Source: Terriglobales bacterium (GTDB lineage: Bacteria > Acidobacteriota > Terriglobia > Terriglobales > Acidobacteriaceae). From it: DNA of 64,000 nt. The stretch is from NCBI GenBank assembly GCA_025462725.1, contig JAOAPE010000011.1, forward strand, positions 372,001-436,000, read 5' to 3'. The notes under the pieces were generated by a model. The model was not told the DNA's origin. It did not search any database and was given only the letters and a program-made list of their open reading frames with translations. How positions within the stretch are numbered: position 1 is the first letter of the stretch; every line of letters begins with the position of its first letter. A program made the position numbers and the translations under genes. This document shows positions 9,391-31,332 of the stretch, in pieces.

Positions 9391-9478
9391 GCCGGGATGG
9401 CGGAACTGGCAGACGCAGCGGACTCAAAATCCGCCGGGCCTTGCGCCCTTGGGGGTTCGATTCCCCCTCCCGGCACCA
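9391..9478 (+). tRNA. tRNA-Leu (anticodon CAA)
   Basis: This is an 88-base class II tRNA with encoded CCA. The acceptor stem GCCGGGA pairs with TCCCGGC, the anticodon loop CTCAAAA gives anticodon CAA (codon UUG), and there is a long variable arm and a GGTTCGATTCC T-loop. Its 3' end is the integration site of the adjacent mobile element and is reconstituted intact. Confidence 0.95.
9456..9478 (+). other. attL core: 23-bp repeat within the tRNA-Leu 3' end
   Basis: These 23 bases, running from the T-loop (TTCGATT) through the acceptor strand and CCA, are repeated exactly at 31310-31332. Bases on both sides of the two copies differ. This marks site-specific integration by the neighbouring tyrosine recombinase. 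Confidence 0.93.
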
Positions 9479-9524: not shown

Positions 9525-10646
9525 TCACTGCAACAGCTGATTAACAACTCCGTCATGAGCAACGCGCTTCGACTCTGAAGGCGCATTACCGTAAACGTTC
9601 AGCGTGGTAGTGATCGATGCGTGACGCATCAACTCTTTCTGTACATCCATTGAGATTTTCGAATCGCCCAACAGGGAACGATACGTGTGCCTCAATGCAT
9701 GCCACCCGATTGCCCCAATGCCGACCCGAACAGCAGCTGGCGTGATGTAGTTTTGCTGCAAGCTACGCCCAGGGTATGGCATTGCACCGCCCGACTTAGG
9801 ATCCGCAAAGACCCAATCAGTCTCAGCCCTGTATGGCGTAATCGCTCTCCAAGCGAGAAGAGATTCAGCGAGCTTCTGATTGACCGGAAGGATGTCATAA
9901 CTGCTCGGGGTTTTCACCTCGCCAACATGACCCTCGACAATCGCCCGTTGAATCGTTACGACCTCGGCAACGAAATCGAAATCTCCCCACTTCAGACCGA
10001 ACAACTCACTACACCGTAGCCCAAGACACGCGCACGTTACCGCCATAGTTTTCAGCGGCTCCCATGACAGTTCCGAAAGCAACAGCTTCCATTGCATGAG
10101 AGTGATTCCGCGGCGCGTCTTTTTCTTAACCGTCGCTCCAGCGATACGAACCAGAGCCATCGGGTTACGTTCCGTTTTCATCCATCCCCGCCGCATGGCT
10201 GAATCGAAGAGAATGTGCATCAGGCTTCGAAGATGACATTTCGATTTTCCTGAAAGCTGCAATCCCTTCAACCATGTTTCAAACTCAGCAGGAGTGACAG
10301 AGAGCATATTCACACCATCCCACTTGGGCCTGATGTGATTCTGTAACTTCGCCAAGTATCCACGCCGCGTTGAGTGACGCTCCGGAAGATCATCAGCGAT
10401 GTAAGCGTCAATGACCTTGCCGAATGTAACGACCTCACCTTGAGGACGGCTCAGGATTTCGTCTTTGTTGATTGCTATGCGTAGCGACTCAGCCGCACGC
10501 TTCGCCGCCGACAACGATGGCAACTCCCGAAAGGTCCCTATCTTCTTCGAACGATGTTTGTCGCCTTCCCACCACCGGAAGAAGTAAGCCTTCTTTCGAT
10601 TGTCGGGTTGCACATGACCGTTCTGATATTGCTTTGCTCGCCTCAT
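9525..10646 (-). CDS. int: Tyrosine recombinase integrase
   Basis: This 373-residue phage-type integrase catalyses integration and excision at the tRNA-Leu site. It has an N-terminal arm-binding region (about 1-75), a core-binding SAM-like domain (about 75-165) and a catalytic domain with Arg211 (GLRCSELFGL), His316-x-x-Arg319 (WHALRH), His342 and nucleophile Tyr352 (LNVYGNA). All catalytic residues are present. The gene lies next to attL and reads toward the tRNA. Its ATG overlaps the stop of the excisionase-like gene (TAATG), so the two are translationally coupled. Confidence 0.95.
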   Translation of the reverse strand: MRRAKQYQNGHVQPDNRKKAYFFRWWEGDKHRSKKIGTFRELPSLSAAKRAAESLRIAINKDEILSRPQGEVVTFGKVIDAYIADDLPERHSTRRGYLAKLQNHIRPKWDGVNMLSVTPAEFETWLKGLQLSGKSKCHLRSLMHILFDSAMRRGWMKTERNPMALVRIAGATVKKKTRRGITLMQWKLLLSELSWEPLKTMAVTCACLGLRCSELFGLKWGDFDFVAEVVTIQRAIVEGHVGEVKTPSSYDILPVNQKLAESLLAWRAITPYRAETDWVFADPKSGGAMPYPGRSLQQNYITPAAVRVGIGAIGWHALRHTYRSLLGDSKISMDVQKELMRHASITTTLNVYGNAPSESKRVAHDGVVNQLLQ

Positions 10647-10859: not shown

Positions 10860-12191
10860 TCAATTGCTCCATTGCTCTTGAAAGGTCAAGGTGCGTTTGT
10901 TAAATGTCAGTTCGAGTCTGACGTCTGAGTCTCCGAAGCGCTGCTTCGGAACCAAAAGCAACGCGGGCCGGTGAAGAACGTTGTGATTTTGCCTTTCAAC
11001 TGGCCGATGTAGCAGAACGCAGGTGGCTGCGTCCTGGTATATCTCTCCGGTTTCCTTCAAGTCGTCTGCCGTTGGCTCTCTGTCTTCCTGTCCATTCGGT
11101 GCCTTGCGCAGTTGCGAGAGCGCAATCACTGGTACGCCCGTAGACTTAGCAAGTTCACAGACAGCGTTGGAGGCTGCTGCTACGCGCTCGAGGTTTGTTT
11201 GCCGCGCCTCACCGCGCATACGCTGCAGATAATCCACCACAAACAGATCAGCACCCCTAGTGGCGTGCAGCCGTGCTCGGGCTACCAAGTCGCTTGCGGT
11301 AAGATTCCCAGTCTCATCCAGCACGAGTGGTAGTTTGCAGACCTCGGCAGTCCATTCCTGTACTTGCTCTAGCTGACTGTCGGTGAGTTCTCGCGGATCA
11401 CGCAACTTGTAAAAGGGAATTGAGCCCTGTCCGTAAGCCGCTACCGAGCAGCTCAGTACCTGCTTCGCAGTCATCTCGAGAGTGAAGATGACCACCCTTT
11501 TTCCTTGCATTGCATTCGCCAAGGCAATCTGCCGTCCCAAGGCGCTCTTGCCGACCGCCGGTCTTGCTCCAATTACCCAAAGTTCCGACTGCCTAATGCC
11601 CGTCGTGATTTTGTCCAGTTCTGGTATCGCGGTAGTGAGCCCAATCACATCGTTCTTTATCTTGCGGATGGCATGCAATTCGTTCAGCCACTCAAGTCCC
11701 ACTTCAGGAAGCGCAAGCGCGGTTCGCCTGTAACCGCGAGCAACCAACTCTGAAACTTGCTGCTGTAGTTCTCCTAACACTTCGTCAGGAGCGTTACCAT
11801 CCATTGATTTCGTGATGACGCCGTTTGCGGCCGAAATGAGGTCCCGGGATCGAGACCTATCGCGCACAATCTTTGCGTACTCCTCAACACTGCGCTGATG
11901 TGGCACGCCATCGATCAGGGAAGCAACATATGCGGCCCCGCCAATACTGTCCGCGGATTTGCCGAGCGCGTTAGTCACTGTGAGAATGTCGATTGGCTGC
12001 CCATTCTTCGATAGCTTGACCATCGCATTCAATATCTGGCGGTGAGACTCCAGGTAGAAATCATTGGGTCCTACTAACTGCAAAGCTTCATTGCAGAGCG
12101 CCCCCTCCAGCAGGATGGCGCCAAGGATGGTCTTTTCAGCATCGATGCTGGCTGGCAGCGCAGTTTCAATGTCCTGATACTTGGTGTTCAT
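10860..12191 (-). CDS. DnaB-family replicative helicase
   Basis: This 443-residue protein unwinds DNA for element replication. The N-terminal DnaB_N domain (about 8-110: DAEKTILGAILLE, FYLESHRQIL) is followed by a RecA-like domain with Walker A GARPAVGKS, a hydrophobic Walker B ending VVDYLQ, and ALSQLRKAP. The start at 12191 gives the canonical N-terminus and makes an ATGA overlap with the upstream replication gene. An upstream alternative (12323) would lie inside that gene. It is near the usual DnaB length, so probably functional. A self-encoded helicase argues for autonomous replication after excision. Confidence 0.92.
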   Translation of the reverse strand: MNTKYQDIETALPASIDAEKTILGAILLEGALCNEALQLVGPNDFYLESHRQILNAMVKLSKNGQPIDILTVTNALGKSADSIGGAAYVASLIDGVPHQRSVEEYAKIVRDRSRSRDLISAANGVITKSMDGNAPDEVLGELQQQVSELVARGYRRTALALPEVGLEWLNELHAIRKIKNDVIGLTTAIPELDKITTGIRQSELWVIGARPAVGKSALGRQIALANAMQGKRVVIFTLEMTAKQVLSCSVAAYGQGSIPFYKLRDPRELTDSQLEQVQEWTAEVCKLPLVLDETGNLTASDLVARARLHATRGADLFVVDYLQRMRGEARQTNLERVAAASNAVCELAKSTGVPVIALSQLRKAPNGQEDREPTADDLKETGEIYQDAATCVLLHRPVERQNHNVLHRPALLLVPKQRFGDSDVRLELTFNKRTLTFQEQWSN

Positions 12192-13051
12192 TGAATCGCC
12201 TCCCGCTGCTCCCGAATCTGCGCTGGGGTCAAAGAACCCGGTTGAACTTTGCCGGTGTTGCTGGGCGCAGTATTCCACCACCGCTCCATTGCCTCGTAAC
12301 TGCCGAACAGATGACCTTCCCATTCGCAGTATCTTTTACCGTTCGTCTTCGGATCTCGTCCCATGTGCCAATCAGAACTTGCAATACCGTCGATGGCACG
12401 TTTCATCATCTCCATAGCCTCGCCGTTATCGTTGCCAACCTTGGACAGACACTCCTTCATTCGAGCAATCCCCTTGCGCTTACGTACAGCAGTGAAAGCG
12501 TACGTGCTGGGCTTACGCTCAGTGACCTTCAGGTAGTAATTCCAAACCTCCCCCAAGCCCTTTAGCACTTCAGGATCTGTATCTCTCTCAGGGTTAGTTG
12601 TTATAGGTATTGGAGATGCAGATGCAGATGCAGAGCAGCTTTCCGGTGCAGGTTCGGTAGCTGCTGGGTGTTCCGGCGGCACTGGTTCGGTACTAGTTCG
12701 GCTGTACCGAACATTTGCGCGCGCTCGCTGAGCTTCACTAAAAGCCTTTTGTTTCTCGAAGGTTCGCTGCAATCCGTGTTGTTCAAACCAGAGGCCATCG
12801 GCGCTCAATTTCCAAGCACCGGCCAGAAGCTGACCTTTGATTCGTTGCCAGTCTTGCTCCGATGGGTTCCGTAGACGGTTGCGGATTGCTCTCTCGTCGG
12901 TAGAGATTCGGTAGCCTTCCGGTGAAGCTGCGGCGGCACACATCAAAATGACGTGTGCCCCCACTGAATCAAGATCCATCGCCGTAACGTGATCATCTGC
13001 AGCGAACTGCCTTGGGTAGAACTGAAACGCAGGTGATCGGTCTTTCATCAT
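12188..13051 (-). CDS. DUF1376-like phage replication initiator / helicase-loader candidate
   Basis: In this 287-residue protein, residues 1-120 match the DUF1376 / replisome-organiser style: FQFYPRQFAADDHVTAMDL, then AIRNRLRNPSEQDWQRIKGQL. A Pro/Ser/Thr-rich linker (about 120-165) follows. The C-terminal part (about 165-260, RKGIARMKECLSKVGNDNG, DWHMGRD, WEGHLFGSYEAMERW) resembles the C-terminal domain of phage replication proteins that recruit a helicase. Stop and start overlap (ATGA) with the DnaB-type gene, so the pair probably forms the initiation and loading complex. GGAGGCGGC precedes the start. Confidence 0.78.
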   Translation of the reverse strand: MMKDRSPAFQFYPRQFAADDHVTAMDLDSVGAHVILMCAAAASPEGYRISTDERAIRNRLRNPSEQDWQRIKGQLLAGAWKLSADGLWFEQHGLQRTFEKQKAFSEAQRARANVRYSRTSTEPVPPEHPAATEPAPESCSASASASPIPITTNPERDTDPEVLKGLGEVWNYYLKVTERKPSTYAFTAVRKRKGIARMKECLSKVGNDNGEAMEMMKRAIDGIASSDWHMGRDPKTNGKRYCEWEGHLFGSYEAMERWWNTAPSNTGKVQPGSLTPAQIREQREAIQ

Positions 13052-18979: not shown

Positions 18980-19353
18980 ACTTGCTCCTTGATTGAGATT
19001 GGTGCAAGTAGGCAGGATTTACCCCGGGTGGGCTCGAAACGGCTTCCGATTGGAGTATCTGCCTATTACACCTAGTGTCTCTATCCGGTAAGCAAATTTG
19101 CCTCGCGCGCGGGGAACTGCCTCAGCCGTGGTGTCACGTAAGTCTCAAGAATAGTTGTTTCAGACTAGGTGTTGAGCGTGTGAGAAGAGAATTTCTTCCA
19201 CCCCGGTTTAGGGTTAAGCTGTAGGCAATAATCGAATGTAAGTTGTTTGTATTCTGTATCTTAGGGGCGAGGATAGATTTGCTTCCAATCCGAATATCAC
19301 CCTTTTGAAGGTGAAACCCTATACTAAAGGCCGTTTATCTCCTCGATTTCTGG
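18980..19353. other. Divergent intergenic control region inside the element
   Basis: This 374-base non-coding region lies between the minus-strand membrane trio and the plus-strand nuclease operon. It contains a perfect 9-bp inverted repeat, ACACCTAGT (19068-19076) and ACTAGGTGT (19164-19172), and a looser AGTAGGCAG / CTGCCTATT pair (about 19007 and 19060). These are candidate operators for one of the element's small regulators. No strong promoter boxes were identified. Confidence 0.45.
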
Positions 19354-20622
19354 TTGGCAAAGATACAATTTCCGTACATGTCGCCAGAAATGCTTTTCTC
19401 TCAGGCTGAAATTGGGAATGTCATTGACCGCCAGCTTGCCCGTGCGAAAGACGCAGTAGCCAAGATTAGACCTAACGATTTATTGAATGGTGATGACGGC
19501 GCGCTCGCTCAAACAGTCATTGAGACTTACCGGATCCATGTTCCCCTATTAGATTTGGAGGCCAAGGAAGCCACACACGAGGAGATTGATTATGACCTTC
19601 GCAAGGAGCCTCGCGGCACCTACTTCATAAGTGATTATTCGCGTCCATACCCGGTTAAAGGTACAAGGGTAGAGCTTACCGTTCCATTCAATGGGGATGC
19701 TGGACTGTTTCATGTCCGACCCTCCACTTGGAGTTTAAGTCCTCCATGGGGAACAATTTCAGAGAATTGTTTGGTTTTGATCCACGAAGCCAAGACCGTT
19801 AACCCTGAGCAAATAGAGAAAGGCTTCAACAGCACTCTCGGAGAAATAAGTGCCAGCCTCGATAATCTGCGTCAGTCGGCGGAGTCTTTCGCGAAGGAGT
19901 TGGAATCGCTCGTGAAGACGGAGATACAACGGCGCAAACAGAAACTGCGAGAAGAGTCTGAGGCTCTGGGCAGGTTAAGTATGCCCATACGCCGTAAAGG
20001 AGATGCTCCCGCAACATACAGGGTTCCGATTGCGAGAAGGCCAGTTCCGGTGGCCACACAGGTAGTTAAGAGCCGTACCACTACTAATGATCCGAAGCCT
20101 ATTTTCCCCGACGACGAGTACTCACACATTCTGTCCATCTTCAGCAATATGGTTTCCGTAATGGAACAAAGTCCAAAGGCGTTTGCACACATGGGCGAAG
20201 AAGATTTGCGGACCCACTTCTTGGTTCAACTCAACGCCCAGTATCAGGGAAATGCGACAGGGGAAACCTTCAACTATTCCGGAAAGACCGACATCCTATT
20301 GCGTATCAAGGGAAAGAACATCTTCGTTGCGGAATGTAAGTTCTGGAGTGGAGAAAAGGCTTTTCTCGACACACTTGACCAACTTCTCGGTTACCTACAG
20401 TGGCGTGACAACAAAGCTGCAATTCTTCTCTTCAACCGAAACAAGAGCTTCTCTGAAGTGCTTGCCAAGATAATAGAGACGGTGCCGAAGCACTCTAATT
20501 TCGTAAGTGGTGGTGACCGCGTCGGAGAGACGAACTTCCGCTATCGCTTTAAACAGAAGCAAGATGCTGAACGAAACGTAACTTTGACGGTCATGGCTTT
20601 TGATGTACCAGCAAAGATCTAA
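19354..20622 (+). CDS. PD-(D/E)XK-family nuclease-like protein, candidate defence gene
   Basis: This protein of about 422 residues comprises an N-terminal region of unknown fold (about 1-190), a coiled/basic linker (190-250) and a C-terminal restriction-endonuclease-like domain (about 275-390). The last shows GKTDILLRIKGKNIFVAECKFW (metal-binding Asp, then Glu-x-Lys), a QLLGYLQWR helix and AILLFNRNKS. The first methionine may come from TTG (19354) or the ATG at 19378; neither has a good ribosome site. Only four bases separate it from the zinc-ribbon gene. The domain is typical of DNA-targeting nucleases in defence islands. The target and activation are unknown. Confidence 0.72.
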   Translation: MAKIQFPYMSPEMLFSQAEIGNVIDRQLARAKDAVAKIRPNDLLNGDDGALAQTVIETYRIHVPLLDLEAKEATHEEIDYDLRKEPRGTYFISDYSRPYPVKGTRVELTVPFNGDAGLFHVRPSTWSLSPPWGTISENCLVLIHEAKTVNPEQIEKGFNSTLGEISASLDNLRQSAESFAKELESLVKTEIQRRKQKLREESEALGRLSMPIRRKGDAPATYRVPIARRPVPVATQVVKSRTTTNDPKPIFPDDEYSHILSIFSNMVSVMEQSPKAFAHMGEEDLRTHFLVQLNAQYQGNATGETFNYSGKTDILLRIKGKNIFVAECKFWSGEKAFLDTLDQLLGYLQWRDNKAAILLFNRNKSFSEVLAKIIETVPKHSNFVSGGDRVGETNFRYRFKQKQDAERNVTLTVMAFDVPAKI

Positions 20623-20626
20623 AGCA

Positions 20627-20782
20627 ATGCCTCGACGTTCCAAACATCTCCCACCGATCACAACTTGGACATGTCCACACTGCCAGCACGTTCACACAGC
20701 GGCGACGCTGCTGCGGTTGGATAGTACCCGTCTCCAATGCCAGTCCTGTAAGGAGCCATTCCCCGCCATCCCAGCAAAGTAG
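20627..20782 (+). CDS. Small zinc-ribbon protein (51 aa)
   Basis: This tiny basic protein has two CxxC knuckles, CPHC and CQSC, about 23 residues apart, forming a zinc ribbon. It starts four bases after the nuclease stop and ends nine bases before the HEPN gene, so it sits inside a compact operon. Such proteins often bind nucleic acid or act as adaptors. The ATG at 20627 is preferred over an upstream one inside the nuclease gene. Confidence 0.6.
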   Translation: MPRRSKHLPPITTWTCPHCQHVHTAATLLRLDSTRLQCQSCKEPFPAIPAK

Positions 20783-20791
20783 AATGGATTT

Positions 20792-21844
20792 ATGGCAGTC
20801 GACCTTGAACAGATCGATGCCGCGCTAAAGAAAGCCGGCGTCCCAGTTATGCAGCGCCCTGTAAGGGCCTGGCGGGAACTTGTAATTTCCATGGGAGATG
20901 CCGCACCCCCTATTGACATAATAAGTGACTGGTTTTTCAACCGCTACGGCGAACGCGTTTCATGGGATGGGATTGTTGGACTACAACCCGTAGCTATTCG
21001 CGACATGGTTGGTGTCGTCAAGGTACCTTTTATCAGCGAAACAACCACCTTGCGCGTCACTGAGTACGTTGATGGCATCCCAAGTGAAATCCTCACGTCG
21101 CTTTCAGAATCGGAAATGCATGCTTTGCTCGGAGATGCGATGGCAGCGTTCTATGATTTCAAAGCGGTGTATAACCTGCATAGCGAACCGTCAATACTGA
21201 GTCGTGAAGAGTGGCAGCTTGTAGATCGAGCCATGTTTGATTTAGCGGCAGCCTCGACCCTGCTCCAAGTGAACCAAGATACTCAGGGCTGCGTGTTCAG
21301 CATTCAACAAGCTTCCGAAAAGTTCATCAAAGCGGCCCTTTCAAAACTTGGAAAGACACCGAAGCGAGGACATGCCATAAAGGATTTTCTCGACGACCTT
21401 ATCAAGGAGCACTACAAGTTTAACTACTTGCGACGCGCGGTCGATGAAATCAGTTCCGTAACCATGAACGTGCGATATGCGCAGCAGCAGTGGTCTCTCA
21501 GTGACACCTTGAGGTTGTACTCCGCAGGACGGATGATATGCGGATTCATAGCGCAACAATGGCAATTGGACCAAGAACGTGGACCAGTACAAACAGTGCT
21601 GACCCCAGGTCATTGGTACCGCGATTACGACGAACGAATCTCGTATTGCGTTTCGATTGGCCGCACCAATGGCAGGGACACCGCACGGATGTTGGTCCTT
21701 GATGTCGACGCTGGCCCTATAGGCAAGATCAGCGCCGAGGTACTGTATAACGCAGATCTCGCCTTCCACTACGTCACCATCACTGAGTCCGTTGAGATTG
21801 CACGGCTGGAAAAGCGCAGAAAATCTCTTGAGGGGCAATCATGA
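20792..21844 (+). CDS. HEPN-domain protein, candidate RNase or sensor partner
   Basis: The 350-residue protein has an N-terminal half of unknown fold. A HEPN helical domain follows (about 140-255: CVFSIQQASEKFIKAALSKLGK, then KRGHAIKDFLDDLIKE), and a C-terminal part of mostly beta character ends with Lys/Arg-rich helices. In HEPN proteins the R-x4-6-H motif forms the RNase site. Here only an Arg-Gly-His near that position is seen, so RNase activity is doubtful and a structural role is possible. It shares an operon with the PD-(D/E)XK and zinc-ribbon genes. Only nine bases separate it from the gene upstream. Confidence 0.7.
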   Translation: MAVDLEQIDAALKKAGVPVMQRPVRAWRELVISMGDAAPPIDIISDWFFNRYGERVSWDGIVGLQPVAIRDMVGVVKVPFISETTTLRVTEYVDGIPSEILTSLSESEMHALLGDAMAAFYDFKAVYNLHSEPSILSREEWQLVDRAMFDLAAASTLLQVNQDTQGCVFSIQQASEKFIKAALSKLGKTPKRGHAIKDFLDDLIKEHYKFNYLRRAVDEISSVTMNVRYAQQQWSLSDTLRLYSAGRMICGFIAQQWQLDQERGPVQTVLTPGHWYRDYDERISYCVSIGRTNGRDTARMLVLDVDAGPIGKISAEVLYNADLAFHYVTITESVEIARLEKRRKSLEGQS

Positions 21845-22087
21845 AGTGTAAACGTTGTGAGATTTCGCAATCCAATTTGTGGCTGAAGCGCGGCATGTAT
21901 CGTGGGAAACGCCTGTTTCCTGTGTTGTAGGCGAATTAGTGTGCTCGAACTTTGGTGGTCAGCAACCGGGCTCATTAACGATGAATGTCAATGTTTACGC
22001 TGCGCTGAACACACCTGGCGGTTTTTGTTGCTTCTGAAAAGGAGGTTTTGTTGCAATCTGCATATACTACTGGCTCTTCCTTTTTGA
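21841..22087 (+). pseudogene. Small zinc-finger gene, apparently frameshifted
   Basis: An ATG overlapping the HEPN stop (ATGA) opens a 29-codon frame beginning MKCKRC. It stops at 21928-21930, but the +1 frame continues with SATGLINDECQCLRCAEHTW, supplying the second cysteine pair and an aromatic end of a typical small zinc ribbon (CxxC...CxxC). A single-base change near 21920-21935 would join them. It is either a decayed fourth gene of the operon or a consensus error. Confidence 0.4.
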
Positions 22088-22168: not shown

Positions 22169-23158
22169 CTAGTCACCCTCTTGTTCGCTGATGCGAAACA
22201 CGTCTAACCCGCGCTCTCGGCAATACTTTTCGATGATGGCAAACCATTGCTCGTCGAGCTTTCTGTGATCCTCGAAAGAAGTAGCGGGAGAGAGAACTCT
22301 GCCGATCAGTTCGTATTCGGAGTAGAGCGTGATCGGCTGAACTTTCCCTTCAGCAACATCATAGTAAAGGCTAAAAGATCGGCTCTCAGCCTCTGAATAA
22401 CTGGCCGTTAGTTCTACTACGTAAGAGATTCCACCAAACAGCGTGACTAGCGCCCAACCTTTATGCATCCCTGTGTTGAGGTGAATGTTGACGCTGTGCT
22501 GGATGGGCGTTCTAAGCTGACTTGCAGCAAAATCAGTATTGCTGAAGATTCGGATTGGGCACGGTTCGTCCTGCCCAAGCAAATACTTCCTCAATTGTTC
22601 GAATTGGACATGTCTGGCAAAATCGATGCCGTACTCGTAAGCCAGTGTGACAAAGGCGATCTTTGCCGCGGTTCTTCGGGCGGCTTGAGTAAATGCAAAG
22701 AGTGGCCGTTGCTCAGAAACCGGTTGAAAGGTGAGATCTCTGGGCAAGCCAACTTCTGTCATACGTTCGCCACGTTTCTTTCCAGCTTGAACGAATCGCT
22801 CGGCTGCCTCGTTCGTTGTAAAGAATCCGTGCCTTACCTTGCCTCCATCGCTCGTCTTAACTTGCTGGACGAAATCATGAAGTTCGACTGTCCCATCAGG
22901 CCTGAGCTTTGCGTCAACGTTCATCCCTTCAATCTCGACAGTGACCTTCGCGCTCGGTATTTGACCGTCACGATTAGGGATGCCAAAGATATGACGAGCT
23001 GTAATTGTGGCGTTGGCTACCTCTCCTTCAAAACGGGAACAGTGCTCATTGTGCGGCTTACAACTTCCTTGCTTCAGCTCAAGCTTTGAGCCTACGAACG
23101 CAGGGAAAACATGCTCGTCGGTTAGGTTGTCCTTCGTCCCGCAGAATACGCACGGCAT
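22169..23158 (-). CDS. HNH-like endonuclease domain protein (EHVFP type)
   Basis: In this 329-residue protein the N-terminal 55 residues have the treble-clef nuclease pattern CVFCG...LTDEHVFP...SCKPHNEHCSRFE: two zinc-binding Cys pairs around a Glu-His. The rest, about 270 residues, is a mixed alpha/beta region of unknown function. It is convergent with the zinc-finger remnant. The ATG at 23158 is chosen; a TTG at 23188 would add 10 residues. A related but distinct protein is encoded next to it. Confidence 0.72.
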   Translation of the reverse strand: MPCVFCGTKDNLTDEHVFPAFVGSKLELKQGSCKPHNEHCSRFEGEVANATITARHIFGIPNRDGQIPSAKVTVEIEGMNVDAKLRPDGTVELHDFVQQVKTSDGGKVRHGFFTTNEAAERFVQAGKKRGERMTEVGLPRDLTFQPVSEQRPLFAFTQAARRTAAKIAFVTLAYEYGIDFARHVQFEQLRKYLLGQDEPCPIRIFSNTDFAASQLRTPIQHSVNIHLNTGMHKGWALVTLFGGISYVVELTASYSEAESRSFSLYYDVAEGKVQPITLYSEYELIGRVLSPATSFEDHRKLDEQWFAIIEKYCRERGLDVFRISEQEGD

Positions 23159-23255
23159 AAGGATGTGAGTATACGGGTCAGCCCCCAACCCTTGTTTTCG
23201 GATTCGGGATTTCCGCCCGCCGGTTATCGCTGCAGAGTCCTGCTTACAGAGAGAA

Positions 23256-24137
23256 TCACTCAGTTATCTTCTTCACAGTCGTTGGATGACCCGTGAAGAT
23301 CCAGCCACTTGGATCGGTGTCCCCGGATCTTTGCGCTGCCTTCTCCATCATGTCTCGTGTTGCACCTTCATCCGGCTTCTTGATCTCGATATTAGGATTT
23401 ACTGAATCGCGAGTCATTTGAGATCGGTTACGGAAATCAATCGGGTATCCCGAGGCAATCGGATTGACGGAAAGGTGTAGGTCCACTGTGCCAGCATATT
23501 CGAATGGGTATTGCGCCCAATGGTGGATTGGAGTCAGTCTGTTATCTGACAGATCTCCCCATGAGATTACAGTTCCGAGCGGCCAGAATGTGAACTCTGC
23601 GACTATGTTTTGTTTACCAGTTGTCAGGTCAATGTGCGCGCTTACGCCTGACTTGCGGCTTGATCGCATGTTTGACGCGAACATATAAATGGCAATGTCT
23701 TTCGGGATAGCTGTGTTTGTCCGTGACTTGATAAACGGCCCTATCCAATCATTTGCACTCGCAAACCCCGGTCCGTTTGCAGTGACAAACTGAAGCATCA
23801 CCTGTTTAAGTATCGGCAGAGGGCGTCTCAGGCCCAAAAGTGAGATGCTATGAAACTCACGAACGTTCCCAATGCGTTCCGCGACTCGGCGTGCCAGATC
23901 AACGTATGCGCCGCCGTACAATCTTCCCGACTGGTTGTTGCATCGTTCGCACAGACTGCGGAAGTACACACCATGCTGAAATTGTTCACCCTGATTCCAT
24001 GTCAGTTCTTCGCAGCGTCTGTCAATTTCCATTAGGAAAAGAGGGCAGTCGTTGAAAGCAGCTTCTGGAGGGATATGCTCCTTAGAAAGCTTCCCGTACT
24101 TGTTACACAGCCAACAATGGCCTTCCGGAGCGGGCAT
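23256..24137 (-). CDS. HNH-like endonuclease domain protein (EHIPP type)
   Basis: This 293-residue protein opens with CWLCNKYGKLSKEHIPP and later CERCNNQSG (about residues 62-70), the zinc and His-Asn elements of HNH-type nucleases. The remainder is unassigned. It shares the N-terminal design of the gene immediately downstream but little else, suggesting two diverged members of one class. A TATAAT box lies 9 bases before the ATG with no ribosome site, so the mRNA may be leaderless. Confidence 0.72.
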   Translation of the reverse strand: MPAPEGHCWLCNKYGKLSKEHIPPEAAFNDCPLFLMEIDRRCEELTWNQGEQFQHGVYFRSLCERCNNQSGRLYGGAYVDLARRVAERIGNVREFHSISLLGLRRPLPILKQVMLQFVTANGPGFASANDWIGPFIKSRTNTAIPKDIAIYMFASNMRSSRKSGVSAHIDLTTGKQNIVAEFTFWPLGTVISWGDLSDNRLTPIHHWAQYPFEYAGTVDLHLSVNPIASGYPIDFRNRSQMTRDSVNPNIEIKKPDEGATRDMMEKAAQRSGDTDPSGWIFTGHPTTVKKITE

Positions 24138-29960: not shown

Positions 29961-30219
29961 TGCGTTCTTCCTCCAACGCCATCACTCGCTTACGTCCCTC
30001 ATTCATGCGCCGGCATATCTCTTGCTTTGCCTTCGGCCAGAAAGGAGAAATCTCCATCTCCTTCATGTGCTCATGCGGTACCCCGTCGATGTTCCGCTGG
30101 CGCGCTGCAGCGACGGCTTCGTAAATACCTTCTGGCGGGCCGGTCAACTCCCAAGGAGCTTCTTTGCGGCGTTGCGCTTCTTTTAGCATCTCGTCTAACT
30201 CATCCTTGGCAGTATTCAT
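29926..30219 (-). CDS. Hypothetical phage-module protein (97 aa)
   Basis: A charged helical protein (KDELDEMLKEAQRRKEAP, then KAKQEICRRMNEGRKRV). Its ATG overlaps the TerS stop codon (ATGA), so it is probably expressed with TerS. No domain is recognised. It could modify packaging or bind the terminase, but this is only positional inference. Confidence 0.55.
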   Translation of the reverse strand: MNTAKDELDEMLKEAQRRKEAPWELTGPPEGIYEAVAAARQRNIDGVPHEHMKEMEISPFWPKAKQEICRRMNEGRKRVMALEEERNGSTRRAEGNA

Positions 30220-30800
30220 TTCTTGATCACCGCATAGCCAAGTTCAGTCATCTTCTGCTGAATGGCTTTCTCTAGATCGCTGTCCGACATCTCGCGCAGC
30301 TTCACTTGAACTTCGCTCAACGTCTCCAGTCTGTCTGTAAATAGCTTCTCGTGTTTGCCCAGAAGCTCTAATGCGCCGCGCTTGTCGGCCAGTTTGAAGC
30401 GAGTCCTTTGTACCTTCTCGCGTCTTCCATCCCCGGCTCCACCGGCGGCTTCATCAATGGTGATTTCTTGAATCGCTGCGGCCTGCTCTCTGGTTAGCTT
30501 GGAGAAATCAACGAATGCCTCGCCGGTAGGCGTGATGGTCATGTAATCCATCATGTTCGCGTAGCCGATATAACTGAGCTCTCGTATGACAGCGTCGGCA
30601 CTGTGTTGAGTGCGCTTAGATCTTGCTTCCATACTTTGGGCTATCGCTTCGCGGATTCTAGTTTTACCTAGTAGCTGTGAACCAATCTTGTTGGCTGTCC
30701 TGGCGCTATATCCCGCCCTGAGAGCTGCTTTGGTGGCGTTTAAGTCCAACATGTACTCTTCTACGAATCGCGCCTGTTTAGGCTCCAGTGATTTGCTCAT
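30216..30800 (-). CDS. terS: Terminase small subunit (Terminase_2 type)
   Basis: This 194-residue protein recognises the packaging site on phage or satellite DNA. The N-terminal helix-turn-helix (KQARFVEEYMLDLNATKAAL, then RAGYSARTANKIGSQLL) is the hallmark of Terminase_2 small subunits. A helical oligomerisation region (REAIAQSMEARSKR) and an acidic C-terminal tail follow. The length is normal. No large subunit (Walker ATPase/nuclease) is encoded anywhere in the element, the situation in satellites that redirect a helper's large subunit. ATGA overlaps link it to genes on both sides. Confidence 0.9.
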   Translation of the reverse strand: MSKSLEPKQARFVEEYMLDLNATKAALRAGYSARTANKIGSQLLGKTRIREAIAQSMEARSKRTQHSADAVIRELSYIGYANMMDYMTITPTGEAFVDFSKLTREQAAAIQEITIDEAAGGAGDGRREKVQRTRFKLADKRGALELLGKHEKLFTDRLETLSEVQVKLREMSDSDLEKAIQQKMTELGYAVIKK

Positions 30801-31309: not shown

Positions 31310-31332
31310 TTCGATTCCCCCTCCCGGCACCA
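31310..31332 (+). other. attR core: second copy of the 23-bp tRNA-end repeat
   Basis: This is an exact copy of 9456-9478, including the CCA. It marks the right boundary of the element. Host sequence with the 3' end of the ADOP permease gene follows after 14 bases. Confidence 0.93.

Follow-up and report, generated by a model that had tools for sequence, protein, structure and literature searches.

The gene cluster at positions 19354 to 21930 of the 64,000-nucleotide stretch of Terriglobales DNA analysed here (the window) raises the question of whether a nuclease, a zinc ribbon, a HEPN protein and a fourth small open reading frame, tightly packed on a mobile element, constitute a new defence system. 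The preliminary description had suggested such a four-component system, with a zinc finger as its last member. Its account of the layout agrees with the coordinates: the genes for the nuclease (19354-20622), the zinc ribbon (20627-20782) and the HEPN protein (20792-21844) follow each other on the plus strand with gaps of 4 and 9 bases, and the fourth ATG (21841) overlaps the stop codon of the HEPN gene by 4 bases. This tight spacing of 4 and 9 bases indicates co-expression at this locus and is compatible with a lineage-specific partnership. The signals described upstream fared less well. An inverted repeat (ACACCTAGT/ACTAGGTGT, 19068-19076 and 19164-19172) had been assigned to a divergent control region, yet by our own estimate about 0.35 perfect 9-mer pairs are expected by chance in the 430-base upstream region, and no sigma-70-like promoter was detected in the region upstream of the nuclease gene. 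Both were therefore discarded as not rising above chance. Immediately 3' of the cluster, two adjacent minus-strand genes (22169-23188 and 23256-24137) match HNH_5 weakly (E = 0.0016 and 0.008), and the two do not resemble each other significantly.

The mobile element proposed earlier was confirmed. It measures 21,854 bp (21.85 kb; window positions 9456-31332) and is integrated in a tRNA-Leu gene. The left attachment site consists of the 3' end of tRNA-Leu(caa), identified by ARAGORN, in the form of a 23-bp repeat (9456-9478, plus strand), of which an exact direct copy, attR, is located at 31310-31332 (plus strand). Between these repeats, the minus strand encodes a tyrosine integrase (9525-10646; phrog_1, E = 3.1e-51), a DnaB-like replicative helicase (10860-12323; phrog_19, E = 1.3e-81) and, at the far end of the element, a small terminase subunit (30216-30800; phrog_51, E = 5.1e-34). 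Genes for a capsid, a portal or a large terminase were not recognised among those of its open reading frames that were scanned. The tRNA integration, the integrase, the replication helicase, the small terminase and the lack of recognised structural genes are reminiscent of PICI-like phage satellites, a likeness of gene content alone. Two readings are possible for this acidobacterial element, a candidate phage satellite and the remnant of a decayed prophage.

The first gene of the cluster is a member of a family that has already been catalogued. Its 422-residue product, read from a TTG start, matches the PADLOC profile PDLC05036 of PDC-S54, a single-gene phage-defence candidate, over nearly the full length (E = 1.9e-139; query residues 10-420 of 422, profile positions 2-408 of 410). 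An alternative ATG start at 19378 would fit the starts of several relatives better. PDC families are candidate defence genes, mostly unvalidated, collected by "guilt-by-embedding" inside known systems, according to PMC12988326, which gives the preprint by Payne et al. 2024 (doi 10.1101/2024.01.29.577857) as the source. No paper naming PDC-S54 was found in the partial collection of literature searched. The earlier statement that no named system with this gene order was recognised holds insofar as PADLOC names the nuclease only, but the nuclease itself is a catalogued single-gene candidate. It has the two-module build and the catalytic residues of PDC-S54. By definition the family consists of a single gene, which is also how it is usually found, whereas the copy in the window is followed closely by the zinc ribbon and HEPN genes.

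The PD-(D/E)XK motif assigned to this protein (GKTD...ECK) was recovered in an alignment of 79 PDC-S54 relatives, in which D313, E327 and Q343 are invariant (79/79) and K329 is kept in 78. These residues belong to a nuclease domain that spans about residues 247-420 (20092-20613, plus strand). The AlphaFold2 model (pLDDT 88.6) sets the N-terminal domain apart from the C-terminal one and also contains a long helix. In the C-terminal domain, the elements are ordered alpha-beta-beta-beta-alpha-beta, which fits a PD-(D/E)XK core: a helix (282-297) is followed by a beta hairpin bearing D313 and E327-C-K329, a helix (334-347) with Q343, and a strand (354-361). Foldseek comparison of the model resulted in weak matches to Mrr, restriction endonucleases, McrC and OkrAI. 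None of the matches in the PDB and BFVD reached E<=0.001, and a search of the PDB by sequence gave nothing meaningful. Since several of the weak matches are nucleases of the PD-(D/E)XK fold, a restriction-endonuclease-like fold, predicted from the motif, the secondary structure and these hits, is likely, although not proven.

If the four genes formed one system, their relatives should be expected to remain together. They do not: in about 90 independent loci with a PDC-S54 gene, no relative of the window's HEPN protein or zinc ribbon was found beside it, and a small CxxC-CxxC open reading frame occurs near a PDC-S54 gene in one locus only (L064, about 190 bases upstream). Among 399 genomes sampled across the class, 16 contain a PDC-S54 match and 11 any match to the window's HEPN protein, and the two sets overlap in the window genome only. 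The three full-length relatives of the HEPN protein, a thin sampling, have other neighbours as well. The same gene order is thus absent from the PDC-S54 loci and from the three HEPN loci, and the homologues stand apart in every sampled locus. The proposal of a conserved four-gene operon was abandoned on these neighbourhoods of nuclease, HEPN and zinc-ribbon relatives. In most loci, the PDC-S54 nuclease stands alone. Where conflict-related neighbours occur, they include type I R-M specificity and methylase subunits, GmrSD, SEFIR, Swt1-HEPN, Schlafen AlbA_2 and Fic, and some relatives lie within type I R-M operons, as would be expected if a defence gene moves either by itself or within other systems. 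In one locus (L007:785-1459), a 224-residue gene overlaps the PDC-S54 gene by 4 bases; it carries an RNKSVAH-type motif reminiscent of HEPN and has no significant Pfam assignment.

A multi-gene system confined to this lineage, in which the nuclease would act as the effector, with the zinc ribbon as an adaptor that binds nucleic acids and the HEPN protein as either a regulator or a further effector, is unlikely in the light of these neighbourhoods. The co-directional genes spaced by 4, 9 and -4 bases would suit it, other defence loci also bring together HEPN, zinc-ribbon and nuclease parts (PMC3710099), and a few PDC-S54 relatives adjoin unrelated HEPN-type proteins (one PF05168 and one HEPN_Swt1 hit among 71 neighbours and, separately, one DUF3644 hit). 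Against it stand the solitary position of most PDC-S54 genes and the different surroundings of the HEPN and zinc-ribbon relatives. Judged by the gene content of the sampled loci, the cluster is a one-off arrangement, real in its layout, on an integrated phage-like element. The defence role proposed at the outset is retained for the nuclease, based on its PADLOC assignment, the mobile element and the conflict genes near its relatives, but not for a joint nuclease-HEPN system.

The HEPN protein was correctly recognised from the start: residues 143-233 of its 350 residues match PF05168 (E = 1.5e-13; 51.3 bits, compared to a gathering score of 22). It resembles HEPN-T in this match and differs from it by additional flanking domains that have no assignment and by the absence of an Rx4-6H motif, which a motif scan did not detect anywhere in the 350 residues. 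A role as RNase is consequently unsupported, and the canonical RNase was dropped as a candidate. HEPN-T is tabulated with a replacement of the histidine and with genomic clustering with R-M operons, and HEPN-T proteins in which D replaces this H keep another conserved H that possibly contributes to activity (PMC3710099). At this position, both H and D are missing from the window protein, so that its sequence neither supports catalysis nor rules it out. R228 and H194 are invariant in four HEPN relatives, which leaves room for another active site. The single-sequence structure prediction (pLDDT 40) was too poor for use. No relatives were found in plasmids, phages or viral contigs; the full-length ones lie in the loci L125 to L127. 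In L125 (9501-12013), the HEPN relative overlaps by 4 bases a 437-residue protein that looks TIR-like by eye and has no Pfam or PADLOC match, and in L126, the neighbours resemble AbiE-type pairs, also by eye.

The missing RNase motif leaves room for a regulatory binder, and the overlapping or adjacent gene order on a mobile element might evoke a toxin-antitoxin-like pair, in which the HEPN protein (or the zinc ribbon) would restrain the nuclease like an antitoxin and stabilise the element. However, PDC-S54 genes normally occur without this HEPN protein, and antitoxins usually precede the toxin or co-occur with it stably, which makes such a pair very improbable. Unlike in HEPN-MNT toxin-antitoxin systems, no nucleotidyltransferase (MNT) gene is adjacent; the HEPN gene is flanked by the zinc ribbon and a 29-codon open reading frame.

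The zinc ribbon (51 residues) carries the CxxC...CxxC signature attributed to it (CPHC...CQSC) and yields weak Pfam zinc-ribbon hits. Its relatives are 54-64% identical: two are encoded elsewhere in the window genome (62% and 54%), and one in another genome (64%) adjoins an ASCH-like gene. A more distant relative is found in a prophage-like region, a setting in which one or two of the relatives occur. The fourth gene, described earlier as a frameshifted zinc finger, did not withstand closer inspection. Its frame, with a CxxC, closes after 29 codons (21841-21930, plus strand), and a search of 101 genomes for the 61-residue continuation in the +1 frame (frame 2) gave no convincing homologue, with a best E of 0.04. 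For this reason, the frameshifted zinc finger was rejected, and the open reading frame is treated as a remnant or a chance occurrence.

The more informative part of the nuclease is its N-terminal module (about residues 9-208; 19378-19977, plus strand), which has a sensor-like appearance and ends in the model in a long helix (residues 151-206). The search with PDC-S54 also retrieved proteins that match its first ~230 residues alone. In five acidobacterial proteins, a TIR domain takes the place of the nuclease behind this module (L012:1495-2580; L014:1060-2223 and L015:852-2117, both on the minus strand; L016:1492-2652; L017:1453-2550), and L166 probably contains a sixth such fusion, which looks broken. 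PDC-S66 and other bacterial TIR defence proteins have the N-terminal module in common with the window nuclease through the fusions in L012, L014 and L016, but their effector is a TIR domain instead of a PD-(D/E)XK nuclease. The module also occurs by itself, in L018 (226 residues), in L164 and as 201-residue proteins on Bosea and Rhodopseudomonas plasmids (L161 and L162). On these plasmids, it directly precedes a protein of ~1035 residues, which combines an N-terminal caspase domain (FSGHGS and DCCFSGG motifs) with a HamB-like DEAD/DEAH helicase (L161:3486-7209; L162:3378-7204). TIR and caspase genes are also present on the opposite strand of L162. Conversely, plasmids of E. coli and Pantoea encode the nuclease domain with an unrelated N-terminus in front of it (L177:2506-3540; L178:2479-3513); the E. 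coli copy precedes a DEAD/DEAH helicase.

The two halves of the protein have diverged to different extents, with a median identity to the window protein of 27% for the N-terminal module versus 56% for the nuclease domain. The module thus appears to evolve faster, as expected for a recognition part under diversifying pressure, and weaker constraint would fit equally. In a quick tree of 92 modules, the one from the window falls into a supported set of seven (SH-aLRT 96), made up of three TIR-fused, three nuclease-fused and one stand-alone module, and its nearest rows are TIR-fused. Although the tree scatters the TIR fusions, an AU test is compatible with a single TIR clade (p = 0.50). Several independent effector swaps were therefore not retained, and we claim at least one exchange, not many: the phylogeny of the module shows that the C-terminal part, nuclease or TIR, has been replaced at least once behind a common front.

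These combinations suggest that the ~205-residue module might be an unrecognised, widely distributed immune sensor or adaptor that works with at least three kinds of effector, namely a PD-(D/E)XK nuclease, a TIR domain and a caspase-DEAD/DEAH helicase, the last of these as a separate subunit. We consider the chances of this proposal, including its list of effectors, to be evenly balanced. No description of a front module that connects PDC-S54 with TIR and caspase-helicase proteins was found in the partial literature searched.

The replication and packaging genes of the element could also suggest a nuclease with no defensive function, a DNA-processing enzyme of the phage or satellite used in packaging, recombination or host take-over. 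Relatives on nine contigs of viral collections would be in line with this. The bulk of the family points elsewhere: its members are spread across bacteria and archaea, mostly on chromosomes or plasmids, with some in the type I R-M operons mentioned above, the N-terminal module has no match among 50,697 phage records, and PADLOC lists the family as a defence candidate. A non-defensive enzyme is accordingly improbable.

The locus is probably best explained by a PDC-S54 defence nuclease that combines sensor and effector in a single protein and is carried as cargo by an integrative element of phage origin, next to genes that are independent of it. In this protein, the N-terminal module would detect a cue from the replication of a phage or a foreign element, or bind a partner, and the long helix could transmit the signal or dimerise. 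The PD-(D/E)XK domain, once released or assembled, would then cut DNA, which might kill or arrest the infected cell (abortive infection) or destroy the invading DNA. As their arrangement with the nuclease is not conserved, the HEPN protein and the zinc ribbon, which are co-transcribed with it, most likely represent cargo genes in their own right and not required partners of the nuclease; the former may function separately, as a non-canonical HEPN factor in defence or regulation.

The nuclease thus adds one member to a candidate family that is already catalogued, and the four-gene set is no new kind of system. The absence of a four-gene system saves effort, and the modular sensor is the interesting part. 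A catalogued, uncharacterised defence candidate gains a testable mechanism, in which a fast-evolving front module would be combined with interchangeable effectors (nuclease, TIR, caspase). If the modular reading is true, PDC-S54 would form a branch within a modular family of sensor-effector defence proteins and would not be an isolated nuclease, and if the module senses a phage cue, several candidate families that are now listed separately would become linked.
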